Shown here: in pieces, positions 4,089-10,547 of the stretch
How positions within the stretch are numbered: position 1 is the first letter of the stretch
How the letters are laid out: every line of letters begins with the position of its first letter
Source of the DNA: Gammaproteobacteria bacterium
GTDB taxonomy: Bacteria; Pseudomonadota; Gammaproteobacteria; GCA-001735895
Direction: 5' to 3'
Assembly: GCA_030066085.1 (NCBI GenBank)
Contig: JASJCI010000014.1
Span: 1-64,000 of the forward strand
Length of the DNA: 64,000 nt
Notes under the pieces: model-generated
Told to the model about the DNA's origin: nothing
The model's database searches: none
Seen by the model: the letters and a program-made list of their open reading frames with translations, nothing else
Made by a program: the position numbers and the translations under genes

Positions 4089-4583
4089 GTGCAGTTGATC
4101 GCTCGCCGCCACTGCCTGCCGCTTTTACTGGCAATCGGCCTAGCGGGCTGCGGTTTTCGCCTTGCCGGCAGCATCGAGCTGCCGCCTGAATTGGCAGTGA
4201 TTCAGCTCGAAACCAGCGGCTTCGATCGCCGCGAGCGCGAGGCCCTGCAAGACCGCCTGCGCGCCGCCGGCAGCCGGCTGGTCGAAAACCCGGGCCCGGG
4301 CATCCACCGGCTGAGCGTGCGCCTGCAGCGGACCGACGACCGCCGCCTGGTAACCGGCGCCAGCAGCGGCAGCAATGTCGTGCGCCTGGAGCGCAGCCTG
4401 GTCTTCAGCCTGCGCGACGCGGCCGGTGAAATCACCGTGGCCGACACCACCCTGGTGCAGCAGAAAGACTTCCGCGTCGACGACGATAACCTGCTGGCAT
4501 CGACCGCGGACCGCGACAATGCGCTGGCCGATCTCGAACGGGCCCTGTTCGACCAGCTGATCCGGCGCCTGGCCCGGATCTGA
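4089..4583 (+). CDS. lptE: LPS-assembly lipoprotein LptE
   Basis: Outer-membrane lipoprotein that plugs the LptD barrel in LPS export. GTG 4089 gives 164 aa with a short basic N-terminus, a hydrophobic stretch and a lipobox LAGC ending at Cys21, followed by the family-typical CGFRLAG. An upstream GTG at 4047 would place a long polar stretch before the signal peptide and overlap leuS, so it is not chosen. The order leuS-lptE is conserved in gammaproteobacteria. The usual next gene holA is displaced here to 9540 by the cassette starting at 4698. Confidence 0.93.
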   Translation: MQLIARRHCLPLLLAIGLAGCGFRLAGSIELPPELAVIQLETSGFDRREREALQDRLRAAGSRLVENPGPGIHRLSVRLQRTDDRRLVTGASSGSNVVRLERSLVFSLRDAAGEITVADTTLVQQKDFRVDDDNLLASTADRDNALADLERALFDQLIRRLARI

Positions 4584-4596
4584 ATCGGTTCGAACG

Positions 4597-4645
4597 GGTA
4601 AATTTGCACGCGGAAATTTACCGCCCGGGGACAAGCGTTTATAAT
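4597..4645 (+). promoter_or_regulatory. Sigma70-type promoter with an inverted repeat over the -35 region
   Basis: A -35 element TTTACC (4617-4622) and a consensus -10 TATAAT (4640-4645) are separated by exactly 17 bp, with a predicted start near 4652. A perfect 9-bp inverted repeat, GGTAAATTT (4597-4605) and AAATTTACC (4613-4621) with a 7-nt spacer, covers the -35. It is not followed by a T-run, so an operator is more likely than a terminator. It would drive the cassette beginning at 4698 independently of leuS-lptE. Confidence 0.65.
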
Positions 4646-4697
4646 CCCGCAATTCCTGTCCAGGTCAGCCGGAGAGACCTCATCGCACGCACGTATT

Positions 4698-5285
4698 ATG
4701 TCCGCACCGAGTGATTCCGCGCCGCCGCCGTCCCGCAAGAACCCGCTGATCTGGATCGCAATCGCGGTCGCGCTGTTGATCCTGTTCCTGGTGGTCGGCG
4801 GCGAGCGGGGCCTGTCGCGCATCGACCCGGCGCCGGAGCCGGTGCCGGAGCAGGCGGAAGAGTCGGCCGGCACCATCGAGCGCAGCCTGCTGGTGCCGCC
4901 GGGCATGCGCGCGCGCCAGTACATCGAGCAGCTGCGCGCCGCGGGCGGACCCTACCCGTTACAGGAGATCCATGCAAAGGCGTTGAGTTACAGCAGCGAG
5001 GGCAGTCTCGCCGATGCACACCTGCTGTACTTTTTCGCCGCGCGCGAAGACCACTTGCCGTCCATCCTGGTGATGGCCGAAATGTCCGATCCGACCCGCT
5101 TTCGCGCGCAGGATTCCCTGCTCGATTACGCTGACGTGATCCAGGCCTACAAGTGGTACCAGCGCGCCGCGGATCTCGGTGACGAGACCGCGCTCGCGCG
5201 CGTCGAGGAACTGCAGACCTGGGCGCGCGACGCGGCCGGGGATGGCGATCCGCAGGCGCGCCAGCTGCTGCTGAATTACCAATAG
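4698..5285 (+). CDS. Membrane-anchored Sel1-repeat protein of unknown function
   Basis: A 195-aa protein with a short cytoplasmic Pro/Ser-rich head, one membrane helix (about residues 16-34, PLIWIAIAVALLILFLVV) and a helical periplasmic part. The motif AYKWYQRAADLGDETALARV near the C-terminus is a Sel1-type TPR repeat, with one or two degenerate repeats before it (SYSSEGSLADAHLLYFFAA). It is the first gene of the four-gene cassette, after its own promoter, and is 8 bp from the vWA gene. Sel1 repeats usually mediate protein-protein contacts, so a scaffold role for the cassette is an inference. I do not recognise a named orthologue. Confidence 0.75.
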   Translation: MSAPSDSAPPPSRKNPLIWIAIAVALLILFLVVGGERGLSRIDPAPEPVPEQAEESAGTIERSLLVPPGMRARQYIEQLRAAGGPYPLQEIHAKALSYSSEGSLADAHLLYFFAAREDHLPSILVMAEMSDPTRFRAQDSLLDYADVIQAYKWYQRAADLGDETALARVEELQTWARDAAGDGDPQARQLLLNYQ

Positions 5286-5293
5286 GAGAACCA

Positions 5294-7246
5294 ATGGCGA
5301 AAGTCCCGACCAGGCGGATTTTGCAGGCGCTGCTCGCCTGGATGCTAGTCGCGCTCACCGGGCCGGCGCTTGCCGACGACAAACCGCTGCTGATGGAGGG
5401 CAAGAAGACCCTTTATCAACGCGTGCTCAGCGTGCCCGACGCGCGTCTTTACGAGGCGCCGTCCGATACCGCCGCGTCGAGCGCCATCGTGCCCTTCAGC
5501 GTGCTCTACGTCTACGACAAGGGCGAAGACTGGCTCAAGGTGGGTTACGACAGCTTCGGTCGCATTGCCGGCTGGGTCGAGCGTGAGAGCGCGATCGCCT
5601 GGAACCAGGCGCTGACGGTGTCCTTCAAGGACCCGCAGGACATCCAGCGGGTAATGCTGTTCAACAGCAAGGACGCGCTCAAGACCATGGTCGAGGGATA
5701 CGACACCGCGGGTTACCAGCAACTCTACGACGCCGTGGTCGCCGGACAGCCGCCGGAGAAGTCGCCGGTGATCGCGATCCAGCCCGAGGCGCACCTCGAA
5801 ATACGCGACAACTTTTACCTCGTGCCGATCAAGCAGCACGAGGACGTTTACCTCGGCAACGAGCAGGCGCGCCTGCTCGAGATCGCCAGCGTGCCGCTGG
5901 AAGATTCCAGCGACATCGATGCGCTGGCGCAAAGCGGCGAGAGCCGCAGCTATCGCAGCGGTATCCATTTCGTCATCGATTCGACCCAGTCGATGGGGCC
6001 CTATATCGACCGCACCCGCGAGGCGGTTGCGCGCGTGTACGAGGCGATCGAACGCCAGGGCCTGACCAACCAGGTCAGCTTCGGCCTGACCGCCTACCGC
6101 GACAATCTCGACCAGGTGCCGGAGCTCGAATACCTGACGCAGCGCTATGTCAGCCTGGAGCAGGGCACCGACGTGGAGCAGTTTTTCAAGCGCGTCAACA
6201 GCCTGAGCGCGTCCGAGGTGTCCAGCCGCGACTTCCGCGAAGACGCCTATGCCGGCATCAAGTCCGCGATCGACGATTCCGACTGGGAGCGATTCGATGC
6301 GCGTTACGTGGTGCTGATTACCGATGCCGGGCCGCGGGAAAGCTTCGATTCGCTCGGCGCCACGCGCCTCGGCGCGCAGGCCCTGCGCCAGCTGGCTTAC
6401 GACAAGGGCGTATCCATCTGGGTGCTGCACCTGCGCACGCCGTCGGCCGCCGCCAATCACGAAAAGGCCGAGAAGCTGTACAAGCAGGTGTCCTATTACC
6501 CCGGAATCGGCGATTTTTACTACGGCGTCAGCCTCGGCCAGGTCGACGAGTTCGGTACCGTGCTCGAGGTGCTCGCCAACCAGATCACGCAGCAGGTGCT
6601 CGCCACCACCAACGGTGTACCGCCGCTGCCGTTGCCCGAGCGCGACGAATCCCAGTCGCAGCTGGCGCAGTTGCAGGACCGGGTCGCCAAGCTCGGCAAC
6701 GCGCTGCGCATGCGCTACGTGCAGCGCGAGTCGGGCCAGCCGCTGCCCAAGGTGTTCGATGCCTGGATGGTGGACCGCGATTTCGTCAATCCCGAACGCT
6801 CCGCGGTCGACGTGCGCGTACTGTTGACCCGCGATCAGCTCAGCGATCTCAAGGATGTCATGCAGCAGGTGCTCGAGCTTGCCGAGGAAGGCGTATTGAG
6901 CCCGCAGAATTTCATCGACGACCTCAAGAGCCTGGCGGCGACCGTCAGCCGCGATCCGTCGTCGGTCGCGAGCAGCACCTCGGGCGCCGGCGCCAACCTC
7001 GCCGAAATGGGTTACATGCGCGAATACATCGAGGACCTGCCCTATACCGGCGAAGTCATGAACCTGACGCTCGAAACCTGGGAAGAATGGTCGGCCAAGA
7101 CGCAGATCGAGTTCATGCACCGGCTCGAAAGCAAGATCAACTATTACCAGGCGCTGCACGACCATACCGACCTGTGGGTTACCCCGGGCGGCGGGCCGGT
7201 CAGTGGCAGCTCCGTGTTCCCGGTAGCGCTCGAACTGTTACCCTAA
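5294..7246 (+). CDS. Secreted SH3b + von Willebrand factor A domain protein, PpkA C-terminus-like
   Basis: A 650-aa protein with a Sec signal peptide (cleavage after GPALA, about residue 27). An SH3b-like domain follows (residues about 35-105, VLYVYDKGEDWLKVG). A vWA domain spans about 222-430: a DxTxS metal site at Asp229-Ser233 in FVIDSTQSM, then LTAYRD and LITDAGPRE, then an unusual VLHLRTPSAAANHEKAEK segment. The SH3b-vWA pair, the DAGPRE motif and the HLRTP segment recall the extracytoplasmic half of PpkA of the Pseudomonas T6SS threonine-phosphorylation pathway, but no kinase domain is present. A C-terminal helical region of about 200 aa ends the protein. A clear GGAGA ribosome site precedes ATG 5294, and GTG of the ABC ATPase abuts the stop. 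Confidence 0.85.
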   Translation: MAKVPTRRILQALLAWMLVALTGPALADDKPLLMEGKKTLYQRVLSVPDARLYEAPSDTAASSAIVPFSVLYVYDKGEDWLKVGYDSFGRIAGWVERESAIAWNQALTVSFKDPQDIQRVMLFNSKDALKTMVEGYDTAGYQQLYDAVVAGQPPEKSPVIAIQPEAHLEIRDNFYLVPIKQHEDVYLGNEQARLLEIASVPLEDSSDIDALAQSGESRSYRSGIHFVIDSTQSMGPYIDRTREAVARVYEAIERQGLTNQVSFGLTAYRDNLDQVPELEYLTQRYVSLEQGTDVEQFFKRVNSLSASEVSSRDFREDAYAGIKSAIDDSDWERFDARYVVLITDAGPRESFDSLGATRLGAQALRQLAYDKGVSIWVLHLRTPSAAANHEKAEKLYKQVSYYPGIGDFYYGVSLGQVDEFGTVLEVLANQITQQVLATTNGVPPLPLPERDESQSQLAQLQDRVAKLGNALRMRYVQRESGQPLPKVFDAWMVDRDFVNPERSAVDVRVLLTRDQLSDLKDVMQQVLELAEEGVLSPQNFIDDLKSLAATVSRDPSSVASSTSGAGANLAEMGYMREYIEDLPYTGEVMNLTLETWEEWSAKTQIEFMHRLESKINYYQALHDHTDLWVTPGGGPVSGSSVFPVALELLP

Positions 7247-7978
7247 GTGACTGTCGTCTACAACCTCAAGAACGTCGTCAAGCAGCGCGTCAGCGATGAC
7301 GGCATCGGCTTTCGCCTGGTAGTGCCCGACATCCAGATCAGTGCGCAGGAGAATATCGCGCTGGTGGGGCACAGCGGCTGCGGCAAGAGCACGCTGCTCG
7401 ACATGCTGGCGCTGATCCTGGCGCCGGACGAATCCGAGCAGTTCGACCTGCACCCGGTGGGCGGCAAGGACGACAATATCGGCCAGCTGTGGAAGCGCAG
7501 CCGGCAAAGCCACCTGTCGCAGATCCGTAAACGTCACATCGGTTACGTGCTGCAGTCCGGCGGATTGCTGCCTTACCTCACCGTGCGCGAGAACATCGAG
7601 CTGCCGCGCAAGCTGCTCAAGCTGCCGGACGACGATTCGATCAACTCGCTGTCGCGCGTGCTCGGGATCCATCGCCAGCTCGACAAGCTGCCGGGCCTGC
7701 TTTCGGCCGGCGAACGCCAGCGCGCGGCCTTTGCGCGTGCTCTGTCGCACCGCCCGTCGATCCTGCTCGCCGACGAACCGACCGCCGCGCTCGATCCCAT
7801 TACCGCGCAGAAAATCATGGCGGTGGTCATGGAAGTCATCCGTGGACTCAAGATCACGCTGATCACGGCGAGCCATGACTGGGCCCACGTGTACAAGATG
7901 GAGCTGCGCACGCTGCGACAGGAATCGGAGCCGGTCGCGGACGGGCGCATCTACGAATCGAGGTTTAGCGACGGATGA
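7247..7978 (+). CDS. ABC transporter ATP-binding protein, TagT/LolD-like
   Basis: A 243-aa cytoplasmic ATPase of the MacB/LolD type. Walker A GHSGCGKST is at residues 41-49, the Q-loop at about 103, the signature LSAGE (a variant of LSGGQ) at 152-156 and Walker B ILLADEP at 172-178, with the switch His in ITASHDW. It starts with GTG 7247 directly after the TAA of the vWA gene and overlaps the permease by 4 bp, so the three are translationally linked. An insertion of roughly 25 residues between Walker A and the Q-loop (HPVGGKDDNIGQLWKRS) is unlike typical LolD. The neighbouring PpkA-like gene suggests the TagT role, which is inferred. Confidence 0.88.
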   Translation: MTVVYNLKNVVKQRVSDDGIGFRLVVPDIQISAQENIALVGHSGCGKSTLLDMLALILAPDESEQFDLHPVGGKDDNIGQLWKRSRQSHLSQIRKRHIGYVLQSGGLLPYLTVRENIELPRKLLKLPDDDSINSLSRVLGIHRQLDKLPGLLSAGERQRAAFARALSHRPSILLADEPTAALDPITAQKIMAVVMEVIRGLKITLITASHDWAHVYKMELRTLRQESEPVADGRIYESRFSDG

Positions 7979-9186
7979 CCCAGTTACCCAGCATCATACG
8001 ACTCAGTTTTCGCGACTACAGCCACGAGTGGCGCATGTCAGGCTGTTTCATTCTCGCGCTGGCCTCGGTGCTGGCGCCGATGCTGATCCTGTTCGGGCTC
8101 AAGTTCGGGGTGGTCAGTAGCATGGTGCACGAACTGGTGGAAAACCCGGTCAACCGCGAGATTCGGCCGGTCGGCAGCGGCCGTTACGACGACGCCTGGA
8201 TCGACGCTTACCGCGCGCGCGGTGACGTCGAGTTCGTGATCCCGAAAACCCGCGCGCTGGCGGCGACCATCCAGCTCAAGAGCGAGACCTCGGCGCGCAT
8301 CCTGTCGACCGAGATGCAGGCCACGGACAGCGGCGATCCGCTGCTGGCCCGCATGCCGCGGGTGCCGCGCGGCTACGGCGAGCTCATCCTGAGCCAGGCC
8401 GCGGCCAGCAAGCTCAACGTGGCGGCCGGCGATCGCATCGATGCCAGCCTGGCGCGCCAGTTCCAGGGCAAGCGCGAGCGCGTGCACCTGCCGCTGGACG
8501 TCATCGCGATTGCCGACGCGACCGTGACCACGCGCGCGGTCGCCTTCGTCAGTCTCGACCTGCTGATCGCCAGCGAAAACTTCAAGGACGGTCGCGCGGT
8601 GCCCGAACTCGAGTGGACGGGCAACAACGAAGACGGGGGCGAGCGGGTATACCCGTCGTTCCGGCTGTACGCGCGCTCGATCTACGATGTCGAGGGGCTG
8701 GTCAACGCCCTCGAGGCCGAGGGCGTGCGGGCCAAGGCGAACGTGGCCGAAATCACTACCGTGCAGTCCATCGACCGCAACCTGTCGGTGATCTTCTGGA
8801 TCATCGCCTGTGTCGGTGCGGTCGGCTTCTCGTTTTCGCTCGGCGCCAGCCTGTGGGCCAATGTCGATCGCAAGCGCAAGGAGCTCAGCGTGCTGCGGCT
8901 GGTGGGTTTCAAGAGCGGTCGCATCGTGTTGTTCCCGGTACTGCAGGCCTGCTACACGGCGCTGCTGGGGTGGTTACTCGCGGTGCTCGTCTACCTCGCG
9001 TTCGAGCACGTCATCAATTTTGTACTGGCGCCGTCGCTCAAGCTTGAGCGCGAACTGTGCTACCTGCTGACCGAGCATTTCATGTGGGCGCTGGGCCTGA
9101 CCGTTACCATCGCCATCTACGCGGCTATTCTCGGCGGCCTGCGCGCGGCCCGCATCCAGCCGTCGGACGGCCTGCGCGAGATCTAG
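7975..9186 (+). CDS. FtsX/MacB-family ABC permease, TagS/LolC-like
   Basis: A 403-aa inner-membrane permease with the four-helix FtsX topology: one helix near the N-terminus (residues about 21-46), a periplasmic domain of about 200 aa, then three helices. The last part contains WANVDRKRKELSVLRLVGFK, the cytoplasmic coupling segment typical of FtsX-like proteins, and it ends with RAARIQPSDGLREI, the usual MacB-family tail. ATG 7975 overlaps the ATPase stop. Such permeases work as mechanotransmitters or lipoprotein extractors rather than classical importers. With the ATPase it forms a complete exporter-type pair, and the PpkA-like neighbour points to a TagTS-like signalling role by inference. 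Confidence 0.87.
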   Translation: MTQLPSIIRLSFRDYSHEWRMSGCFILALASVLAPMLILFGLKFGVVSSMVHELVENPVNREIRPVGSGRYDDAWIDAYRARGDVEFVIPKTRALAATIQLKSETSARILSTEMQATDSGDPLLARMPRVPRGYGELILSQAAASKLNVAAGDRIDASLARQFQGKRERVHLPLDVIAIADATVTTRAVAFVSLDLLIASENFKDGRAVPELEWTGNNEDGGERVYPSFRLYARSIYDVEGLVNALEAEGVRAKANVAEITTVQSIDRNLSVIFWIIACVGAVGFSFSLGASLWANVDRKRKELSVLRLVGFKSGRIVLFPVLQACYTALLGWLLAVLVYLAFEHVINFVLAPSLKLERELCYLLTEHFMWALGLTVTIAIYAAILGGLRAARIQPSDGLREI

Positions 9187-9206
9187 CCGGGCGGGCGCCG
9201 GGCAAC

Positions 9207-9224
9207 TGTAGGAAAGATCCTACA
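9207..9224 (+). promoter_or_regulatory. GacA-type upstream activating sequence (candidate)
   Basis: A perfect 6+6+6 palindrome, TGTAGG-AAAGAT-CCTACA. The known GacA box upstream of rsmX/Y/Z genes is TGTAAG-N6-CTTACA; this site differs by one symmetrical base per arm. Its centre lies about 87 bp upstream of the predicted start of the GGA-rich RNA, within the range seen for rsm promoters. A partial second half-site (CCTACAG) lies at 9241-9247. Confidence 0.7.
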
Positions 9225-9290
9225 AAAACTGTTGCCAACCCCTACAGTAACAGCCGTTGCCCGGCCTGTATGCGGCCGGGGTGTAATGCT

Positions 9291-9296
9291 TATAAT
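9291..9296 (+). promoter_or_regulatory. -10 element of the GGA-rich small RNA
   Basis: A consensus TATAAT with no good -35 at 16-18 bp upstream (GTATGC or TGTATG). That is expected for a promoter that depends on an upstream activator such as GacA. The predicted transcription start is near 9303. Confidence 0.6.
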
Positions 9297-9302
9297 TTCA
9301 CC

Positions 9303-9445
9303 CGTACCCGCAGGACTCGGGTCATGGACGATGTGGATACGGAGCTACTCCCCGCATCACAGGCAGGATGCCTGGCAGGACGCTGCTGGATGAAATAGCA
9401 GGTAATCTTTGGCCCCCAGGTCTCCCCGGACCGGGGGCCTTTTTC
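9303..9445 (+). ncRNA. RsmY/RsmZ/CsrB-type CsrA-sequestering small RNA (candidate)
   Basis: About 143 nt between a TATAAT box and a strong terminator, with no convincing ORF. Seven GGA triplets occur before the terminator hairpin, at 9313, 9326, 9335, 9341, 9366, 9378 and 9388. Several sit in loops of small perfect hairpins: ACCCG/CGGGT around CAGGACT (9306-9322), CAGGC/GCCTG around AGGAT (9360-9374) and CTGCT/AGCAG around GGATGAAAT (9383-9401). CATGGACG at 9323-9330 matches the CANGGAYG motif of Rsm RNAs exactly. These RNAs titrate the translational repressor CsrA/RsmA. The GacA-like box upstream supports the call. It lies between the vWA/ABC cassette and holA. Confidence 0.8.
9411..9445 (+). 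terminator. Rho-independent terminator of the GGA-rich small RNA
   Basis: The stem is GGCCCCC (9411-9417) with GGGGGCC (9433-9439), extended inside by GGTC/GACC after a bulged A, and followed by a T-run at 9440-9444. It would end the small RNA and separate it and the cassette from holA. Confidence 0.9.
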
Positions 9446-9539
9446 ATGGATCCCTTTTTATGGAGCTCTTTTTTATCGGGCCTATGCGCACCGCGCTCGA
9501 CTGCGGCAAAGCACCGCTGCTGTGGTAGGATTCGCCTCC

Positions 9540-10547
9540 ATGAGCAGGCCCCTCGACGCGCAAGATCCACAGCCGCTATACCTCGTTACCAGCAACGAAC
9601 CGCTGCTGTTGCGCGACTGGCTGGACCAGGCCCGCCGCGGACTGCGTGATGCGGGATTCGAGGACATCGTGACGCTGGCGGTCGAGTCCGGCTTCGACTG
9701 GAACGAGCTGGCCGGCGACAGCGACATGATGTCGCTTTTTTCCAGCCACAAGTGCCGGGTTCTGTCGCTACCCGGGGGTAAACCGGGTAGCCAGGGCGGC
9801 AAGGCGATCCAGGCCCTGTGCGCCGATCCGCCGCCGGGCGATGTCTACATCTTCGCGATGCCGGCGCTCGATCGCGCGAGCCGCAACGCGGCCTGGTTCA
9901 AGGCGATCCAGCAAGTGGGCGAGGTGGTCGAGATTCCGCCGGTATACGACAACCAGCTGGTGGACTGGCTGCTGCGCCGCGCCACGGACAAGGGTATCGC
10001 GATCGAGCCGCAGGCCGCGCAGTTTCTCGCCGAACGCACCGAGGGCAACCTGCTGGCCGCCGACCAGGAACTGGAAAAACTCGCGATTCGTTTTGCCGGC
10101 GACTCCGCGATCGGGTTCGACGCGATCGAGGACTCGGTGGCGCAGTCCGCGCGCTACAGCCATTTTGTACTGGTCGATGCCTGCCTCGCCGGCAAGGCAA
10201 AGCGGGCGTTGCGCATCCTGCGCAGCCTGCGCGGGGAAGGTTACGCCACCGGCCAGCTGCGCTGGGCCCTGCAGTCCACGCTGGAACAGCTCGGCCGCCT
10301 CAAGCAGGCCGAGCAGCGCGGCGGCATCGGCGATCGCCTGTGGCAATCGATGCGCATCTGGCGCGGCAAGCAGCGCCTGTACGAGGCCGCGTTGCGGCGC
10401 CTGACGCTGCCGCGAATAGAGCGTTTGCTGCAAAGCTGTGCTAAATTAGACCGCTTGGGCAAAGGTCAGGAAGAGCGCGAGTTCGCCGACAGCGACTGGC
10501 TCGAGGTCGAAATCCTGGTGGCCGATTTCAGTAGCAGGATTCAGTAG
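9540..10547 (+). CDS. holA: DNA polymerase III delta subunit
   Basis: Clamp-loader subunit that opens the beta sliding clamp, 335 aa from ATG 9540. Family signatures are [16 protein letters not shown] near the N-terminus, [16 protein letters not shown]-like sequence in domain I ([12 protein letters not shown]), and [18 protein letters not shown] with the alanine-rich C-terminal helical domain ([11 protein letters not shown]). The N-terminus is about 15-20 residues shorter than E. coli HolA, lacking the first helix; a GTG at 9522 would add only six residues. It normally follows lptE directly but here stands 4.9 kb away. The proA ATG lies 18 bp downstream. Confidence 0.92.

Follow-up and report, generated by a model that had tools for sequence, protein, structure and literature searches.

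A four-gene vWA–ABC cassette between lptE and holA as a putative sister branch of the PpkA–TagTS module

The window analyzed here, a 64,000-nucleotide stretch of contig JASJCI010000014.1 from a gammaproteobacterium (assembly GCA_030066085.1), carries four co-directional genes, p1 to p4, between lptE and holA. They encode a Sel1-like membrane protein, a vWA protein and an ATP-binding cassette (ABC) ATPase-permease pair. Sequence comparison and phylogeny place this cassette as a sister branch within a module that occurs in at least four settings; it is neither a remnant nor the direct ancestor of the TagTS-PpkA pathway of the type VI secretion system (T6SS). All four genes are on the forward strand: p1 (4698–5285, 195 aa; from the open reading frame (ORF) list, Pfam and hydropathy), p2 (5294–7246, 650 aa; from the ORF list, Pfam and comparison with PpkA), p3 (7247–7978, 243 aa; an ABC ATPase with a GTG start, homologous to TagT) and p4 (7975–9186, 403 aa; an FtsX/LolCE-type permease, homologous to TagS). 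As a preliminary description of the locus from its letters had reported, the genes are separated by 8 bp, 0 bp and then a 4-bp overlap. The flanks were also as it had named them: lptE (PF04390) and holA (PF14840/PF06144) were identified by Pfam, and leuS, upstream, by ORF and synteny.

To place the cassette relative to PpkA, we compared its proteins directly, with no profile, with those of a locus designated L195. p2 was 33.3% identical to PpkA over 621 residues (p2 30–650, E = 1e-103), p3 was 46.6% identical to TagT and p4 was 41.5% identical to TagS. Profile A1, made from 30 p2 homologues, matched the C-terminal ~640 residues of ORFs of 1017–1189 aa in six genomes of one family at 667–680 bits, while unrelated vWA proteins scored 53.9 bits or less. 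Both kinships had been proposed from the sequence alone and both held: PpkA is by a wide margin a closer relative of p2 than generic vWA proteins are, and the ABC pair has its homologues in TagT and TagS at those T6SS loci.

The gene order at L195 is TssM, TagF, a PP2C phosphatase, a kinase–transmembrane (TM)–p2 protein (1016 aa), the p3 and p4 homologues and an FGE-type protein, which is the order PpkA-TagT-TagS-TagR. TssM scored 1361 bits and TagF 154 bits (cut-off 41.2), VipB is present in the genome, and by sequence L195 is a genuine T6SS threonine-phosphorylation locus. At L198 a glycine-zipper lipoprotein of the TagQ type follows. Outside the families matched, the names PppA, TagR and TagQ for genes of L195 to L199 were assigned by analogy.

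Four settings of the p2-p3-p4 core were found: next to a gene for a Sel1-like membrane protein, as in the window; in SrfABC clusters; in a kinase fusion (PpkA); and in an AAA+ ATPase fusion. Trees were built without an outgroup from p2 alone (65 rows), from p3 and p4 (56 rows, with L059, L060, L061, L116, L117, L119, L205, L250 and L264 left out as long, incomplete or oddly sized) and from all three genes (38 rows, a further chosen subset, 1284 columns, with bootstrap). The Sel1 type and the AAA fusions formed one clade, with support of 100 (p2), 99 (p3 and p4) and 100/100 (three genes). PpkA formed another, with support of 99, 100 and 100/100, respectively, and neither clade lay inside the other. 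The earlier idea that the cassette was “derived from, or ancestral to” the PpkA/TagTS pathway therefore calls for correction. L120 (genome G341) joined PpkA in all trees; its ORF runs off the contig end, beyond which a kinase part may lie, and VipB is present in its genome.

The AAA fusions nested inside the Sel1-type clade and were themselves one clade (100/100, three-gene tree); in these trees the kinase fusion and the AAA fusion each arose once. PpkA is flanked on either side by kinase-less p1-p2-p3-p4 arrangements, so that fusion to the kinase looks like the derived state, a direction read from unrooted trees. The sister of PpkA was not firm: it was the Reyranella-type SrfABC group in the three-gene tree (88/88), and the p3 and p4 tree gave no resolution. 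In the quick p2 tree the SrfABC-type rows were scattered (6 changes) and L117 and L059 met as long branches. The recurrence of the p2 groups in the p3 and p4 tree suggests that p2, p3 and p4 have travelled together.

One could suppose that the cassette is a degenerate TagTS-PpkA pathway whose kinase, TagR, TagQ and T6SS were lost in this lineage. Its gene order is that of PpkA-TagT-TagS, and VipB was detected in 7 of the 29 genomes listed as Sel1-type (in G311 and G403 the p1 position is cut off, and G174 holds a second, divergent module). However, the Sel1 type is a separate, fully supported clade of many families and is not nested in PpkA, p1 is common to the SrfABC clusters and was not found in six PpkA loci, and the metal-site positions of the vWA domain are retained. 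We consider degeneration very improbable.

Compared to TagQRST-PpkA of the Pseudomonas H1-T6SS, the cassette has the same order, with p2 corresponding to the C-terminal half of PpkA, p3 to TagT and p4 to TagS. It differs in that the locus has no kinase domain, TagR or TagQ and a Sel1-type membrane protein stands before p2. Pfam found no Pkinase match in the 650 residues of p2. The claim that no kinase is present stood at the locus but not genome-wide, as 12 Pkinase matches above the cut-off occur elsewhere in the analyzed genome (G000; 4.39 Mb, assembly 96.55% complete). The reported lack of a T6SS, on the other hand, holds across this genome for two markers, TssF and VipB. For TagR, a search confined to the locus gave no SUMF/FGE match near p2 in the window; for TagQ, none was evident in the ORF list beside the cassette, and no genome-wide search was made.

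The module does not accompany the T6SS at large in this sample, since 18 regions around TagF, some of them cut by contig ends, contained no relative of p2, p3 or p4 at E ≤ 1e-3. They held one FGE-type ORF and one ORF with a kinase motif. A role as a general T6SS accessory was ruled out in the sample on these grounds.

In the SrfABC setting, as in Klebsiella, Enterobacter and Cereibacter plasmids, the genes are SrfB, SrfC, a gene that we call kHyp, p2, p3, p4 and a SUMF1/FGE protein. Among distinct loci with SrfC, kHyp preceded p2 in 26 of 26, and FGE followed in 21 of the 24 with enough sequence. The order kHyp/p1-p2-p3-p4 is thus the same as in the window, but the window type is without SrfA, SrfB, SrfC and the FGE protein, and its p1 is without the N-terminal part that precedes the TM segment of kHyp. 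This shared block would fit a cassette acting as a satellite of an SrfABC system elsewhere in the genome. However, SrfB was found neither in G000 nor in any of the 29 Sel1-type genomes, while the same search found it in 8 of 8 SrfABC-type genomes, and we give the satellite explanation almost no credence. VipB was present in only three of those eight (G201, G176, G053, G682, G777, G749, G681 and G436), and the L201 SrfABC cluster also holds a TagQ-like glycine-zipper lipoprotein.

The SrfABC neighborhood is part of a wider picture already in print. Campbell and co-workers described srfBC-tagQ-ppkA, mostly with tagRST, in host-associated Deltaproteobacteria, with T6SS machinery genes in only one (PMC3608642); the name ppkA for the gene at the vWA position is that of its authors. 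For the Sel1 type, a search of an open-access library, which covers few subscription journals, gave no earlier description.

The AAA fusions (L251, L254 and L267; Methylomonas/Methylococcaceae) are proteins of 1035–1055 aa in which an AAA_22 domain and a TM segment precede an entire p2 module. Of the three proteins scanned, two gave AAA_22 matches, of 57 and 55 bits. Against the model of the XrtA/PEP-CTERM-associated ATPase, the AAA portion of L251 scored 104 bits, under the cut-off of 324.5. Although nested within the Sel1-type clade, these loci differ from the window in the fusion itself, in that p1 was not found and in the position of p3-p4, which lie divergently upstream. At five other loci (L105, L230, L235, L276 and L280) an AAA+ ATPase gene lies 0.7–1.7 kb downstream of p4 on the opposite strand. 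We labeled it ExeA-like after visual inspection of the N-terminus in a single member; it is of the same general kind as the Methylomonas fusion partner. A divergent module group (L060, L119 and L205) showed 27–29% identity, p4-type ORFs of ~600 aa and an FGE protein, and p1 was not found there.

p1 consists of a short N-terminal tail, one TM segment (residues ~17–35, window 4746–4802) and a Sel1/TPR-like domain that is predicted to be periplasmic. In the earlier label “Sel1 membrane protein”, the membrane segment was supported by hydropathy while the Sel1 part is weak, at 19.4 bits under a Pfam cut-off of 30.7. Measured on clean separate alignments, the homology of p1 to kHyp covers the periplasmic domain of p1 (hhalign probability 99.7, E = 3e-26, 110 columns), a score that a generic Sel1/TPR match could raise. 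Common descent is favored by the DP and QA-KWY / TA-YWYE blocks that p1 and kHyp have in common and by their identical gene position.

Among 120 distinct loci whose sequence extends 700 bp or more upstream of p2, p1 or kHyp was present in 108; its presence in 82 of 82 Sel1-type loci is by definition, as that class was defined partly via p1. The 12 exceptions comprise six PpkA loci with the fused kinase, three loci with the AAA fusion and three divergent members. p1 was thus not found at loci whose p2 has a cytoplasmic domain of its own. Most simply read, p1 and the fused kinase or AAA parts do the same job: they anchor p2, on the periplasmic side, at the inner membrane, and the fused parts also link it to an enzyme.

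p2 starts with a hydrophobic stretch (residues 9–27) that is, by eye, typical of a signal peptide. Pfam VWA matched residues 224–356 at 25.0 bits (cut-off 23.8), and alignment and model place the integrin I-domain-like vWA domain at residues ~218–440 (window 5945–6613, forward strand). The MIDAS residues D229, T231, S233 and D344 (DxTxS plus the loop-3 Asp) were invariant in 32 aligned sequences; a larger p2 set contained single rows with S at the T position. In the p2 model (predicted local distance difference test (pLDDT) 78.9, predicted template modeling score 0.72), the best structural matches of the vWA domain were integrin I domains (Z 18.2 to 1aox_A, 191 residues, root-mean-square deviation 2.7), in a comparison that effectively covered residues 217–474. 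By sequence, A1 found no solved relative at E ≤ 1. The label “SH3b” for part of p2 is unproven: Pfam SH3 matched 0 of 30 homologues, and the model has a small beta-rich N-terminal region.

p3 matched Pfam ABC_tran at 88.9 bits and p4 matched Pfam FtsX at 32.5 bits. The TM segments of p4 lie near residues 24–42, 272–290, 325–343 and 369–387, with a periplasmic domain of ~230 aa after the first; a crude hydropathy scan also flagged residues 176–194, a strand in the p4 model. This model (pLDDT 87.9) matched LolE, LolC, MacB, YtrF and FtsX, the best solved relative by sequence was YtrF (E = 0.016), and p4 is by its modeled fold a type VII ABC permease. The pair resembles type VII systems (LolCDE, MacB, FtsEX and YtrEF) in p4 fold, topology and ABC partner, but is distinct in sequence and coupled to a vWA protein.

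These likenesses also suit an export or lipoprotein-handling machine, in which p3-p4 would be a Lol/MacB-like transporter and p1 a scaffold, while p2 would serve in the periplasm as acceptor or chaperone, with no signaling. The best structural matches of p4 are LolE/LolC with lipoprotein and MacB, and YbbA, LolD and FtsE are among the best NCBIfam scores of p3. However, p4 scored only 26.1 bits against the LolCE equivalog cut-off of 362.45, its relatives in the T6SS loci compared are the TagS-position proteins, and Pfam detected no LolA/LolB-like gene within the cassette. A machine of this kind is unlikely.

We think it probable, instead, that the cassette is a stand-alone vWA-TagTS branch in which p3-p4 would set the state of p2 and p2 would pass it to p1. 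The gene set, its homologies, order and conservation, the topology by hydropathy and the separate clades are as observed above. To these we add, by inference, ligand binding, mechanotransmission, a contact between p1 and p2 and a role in envelope perturbation; envelope sensing is borrowed by analogy from TagQRST-PpkA. P. aeruginosa strains deleted for tagQ or ppkA no longer gave a T6SS response when indented or when their outer membrane was damaged (PMC11881912), and a PhoA fusion placed the PpkA C-terminus in the periplasm in Acidovorax (PMC12607579).

In such a branch, p2 would be exported and would bind a ligand or partner via its metal-dependent vWA site. p3-p4 would act as a type VII (LolCDE/MacB/FtsEX-like) pair, cytoplasmic ATP moving the periplasmic domain of p4 and thereby setting the state of p2, and p1, with its periplasmic Sel1-like domain held at the inner membrane, would be the partner that receives it. 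In PpkA and the Methylococcaceae AAA+ fusion, a cytoplasmic enzyme with a membrane anchor fused to p2 would fill the p1 slot and the output would, for that reason, be cytoplasmic. As p1 has a short cytoplasmic tail, a periplasmic output or an unlinked partner is favored for the window type, which probably acts through a response of the envelope, such as surveillance or remodeling, or via a partner encoded elsewhere. ExoR is a protein of the Sel1 kind. It offers a precedent: periplasmic ExoR restrains the inner-membrane sensor ChvG (PMC3460628).

Several points weigh against a stand-alone sensing branch. Of 62 Sel1-type loci that had 4.5 kb or more of downstream sequence, 59 showed no FGE protein (the TagR type), and no TagQ-like gene was seen beside the cassette; it therefore lacks the parts that serve as sensing front end in the known pathway. 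In P. aeruginosa, TagQ and TagR were reported as essential for TssK assembly and TagS/TagT as only modulatory (PMC6657622). The name Sel1 rests on weak scores, with a match at E ≤ 0.01 in 10 of 24 p1 members. Finally, lipoprotein exporters have the same fold as p4, which may thus have a role in transport.

The cassette is widely distributed. A p2 match (E ≤ 0.001) was found in 44 of 143 relatives, one of which (G131) gave only a weak partial vWA match. Within the family of the window, 37 of 41 genomes had p2. The remaining four (G001, G008, G020 and G022) are uninformative about an empty site because holA was not found in three and the contig ends inside holA in G020. A1 matched 45 of 369 class genomes (26 module-type at >200 bits and 19 generic vWA at ≤54 bits) and 43 of 398 phylum genomes (15 module-type). 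A scan of named genomes gave at least 490 relatives among at least 591 pattern matches. From these, 80 loci were retrieved, and those listed include Candidatus Thiodiazotropha, Sedimenticola, Chromatiales, Thiolapillus, tubeworm symbionts, Methylomonas, Pseudomonas, Reyranella and others.

Within the window family, leuS and/or lptE lies directly upstream in 19 of 19 loci with flanks, and holA or proA lies downstream in 17, the contigs of the remaining two ending too soon. Outside the family, in the loci read, the same four genes occur at other positions in many gammaproteobacteria. The placement between lptE and holA thus held in all 19 family loci, but the cassette is not private to that spot. 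Given the constant position in the family and the other positions outside, the cassette was probably placed there before the family diversified and was then kept. Outside the family, the most frequent flanking gene family recurred in no more than 14 of 46 loci of the Sel1 or AAA type, and it lay at varying distance and orientation. As no flanking gene family recurs consistently, the module itself is the unit.

Two other origins or roles were considered and rejected. For a mobile or phage origin, there was no p2 match in the phage collection or in viral contigs, where the search finds close relatives only. For anti-phage defense, PADLOC matched only p3, via general ATPase models, and none of p1, p2 and p4.

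The retention of a vWA protein and an ABC pair without the kinase, TagR, TagQ and T6SS indicates a core device that is separable from the T6SS fittings, and it points to the vWA MIDAS, TagTS and a membrane partner in the p1 slot as the conserved machinery. These data suggest that the T6SS trigger is built on an older, widespread envelope device. It could be speculated that p2-p3-p4 is a general trans-envelope surveillance chassis with plugged-in outputs (the kinase, an ExeA/XrtA-type AAA+ ATPase, SrfABC or the Sel1-like protein), that the T6SS damage sensor was recruited from it and that the window type is its simplest surviving form; we put this forward tentatively. The kinase, AAA+ and Sel1 variants offer natural domain swaps, and the Sel1-type bacteria are hosts for studying the module in the absence of a firing T6SS. 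A 2025 paper still proposes an unknown signaling molecule between outer-membrane damage and PpkA in Pseudomonas (PMC11881912).

A promoter of its own had also been ascribed to the cassette. The sigma-70-like candidate, TTTACC-17-TATAAT (4617–4645, forward strand; 10/12 match), lies in the 114-bp gap between lptE and p1 and is weak: as the single match in 4400–9700 compared to 0.7 expected in shuffles, it is not above chance.

Between p4 and holA, at window positions 9207–9445, lies a candidate CsrA-titrating (CsrB/RsmZ-like) small RNA. The region contains the perfect palindrome TGTAGGAAAGATCCTACA, which resembles the GacA box, a TATAAT-like element and an intrinsic terminator. Rfam gave no match at the gathering threshold. 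Elsewhere in the genome an exact TGTAGGN6CCTACA palindrome occurs just once, at G000:C1:34915-34932 (L294), with no GGA-rich stretch or Rfam match beside it. The candidate RNA, near 9297–9445, is ~150 nt and GGA-rich, with 8 GGA compared to 2.7 in shuffles (1 of 500 shuffles was as high), and its box, searched for with a loose pattern, was present in 10 of the 17 family loci examined.

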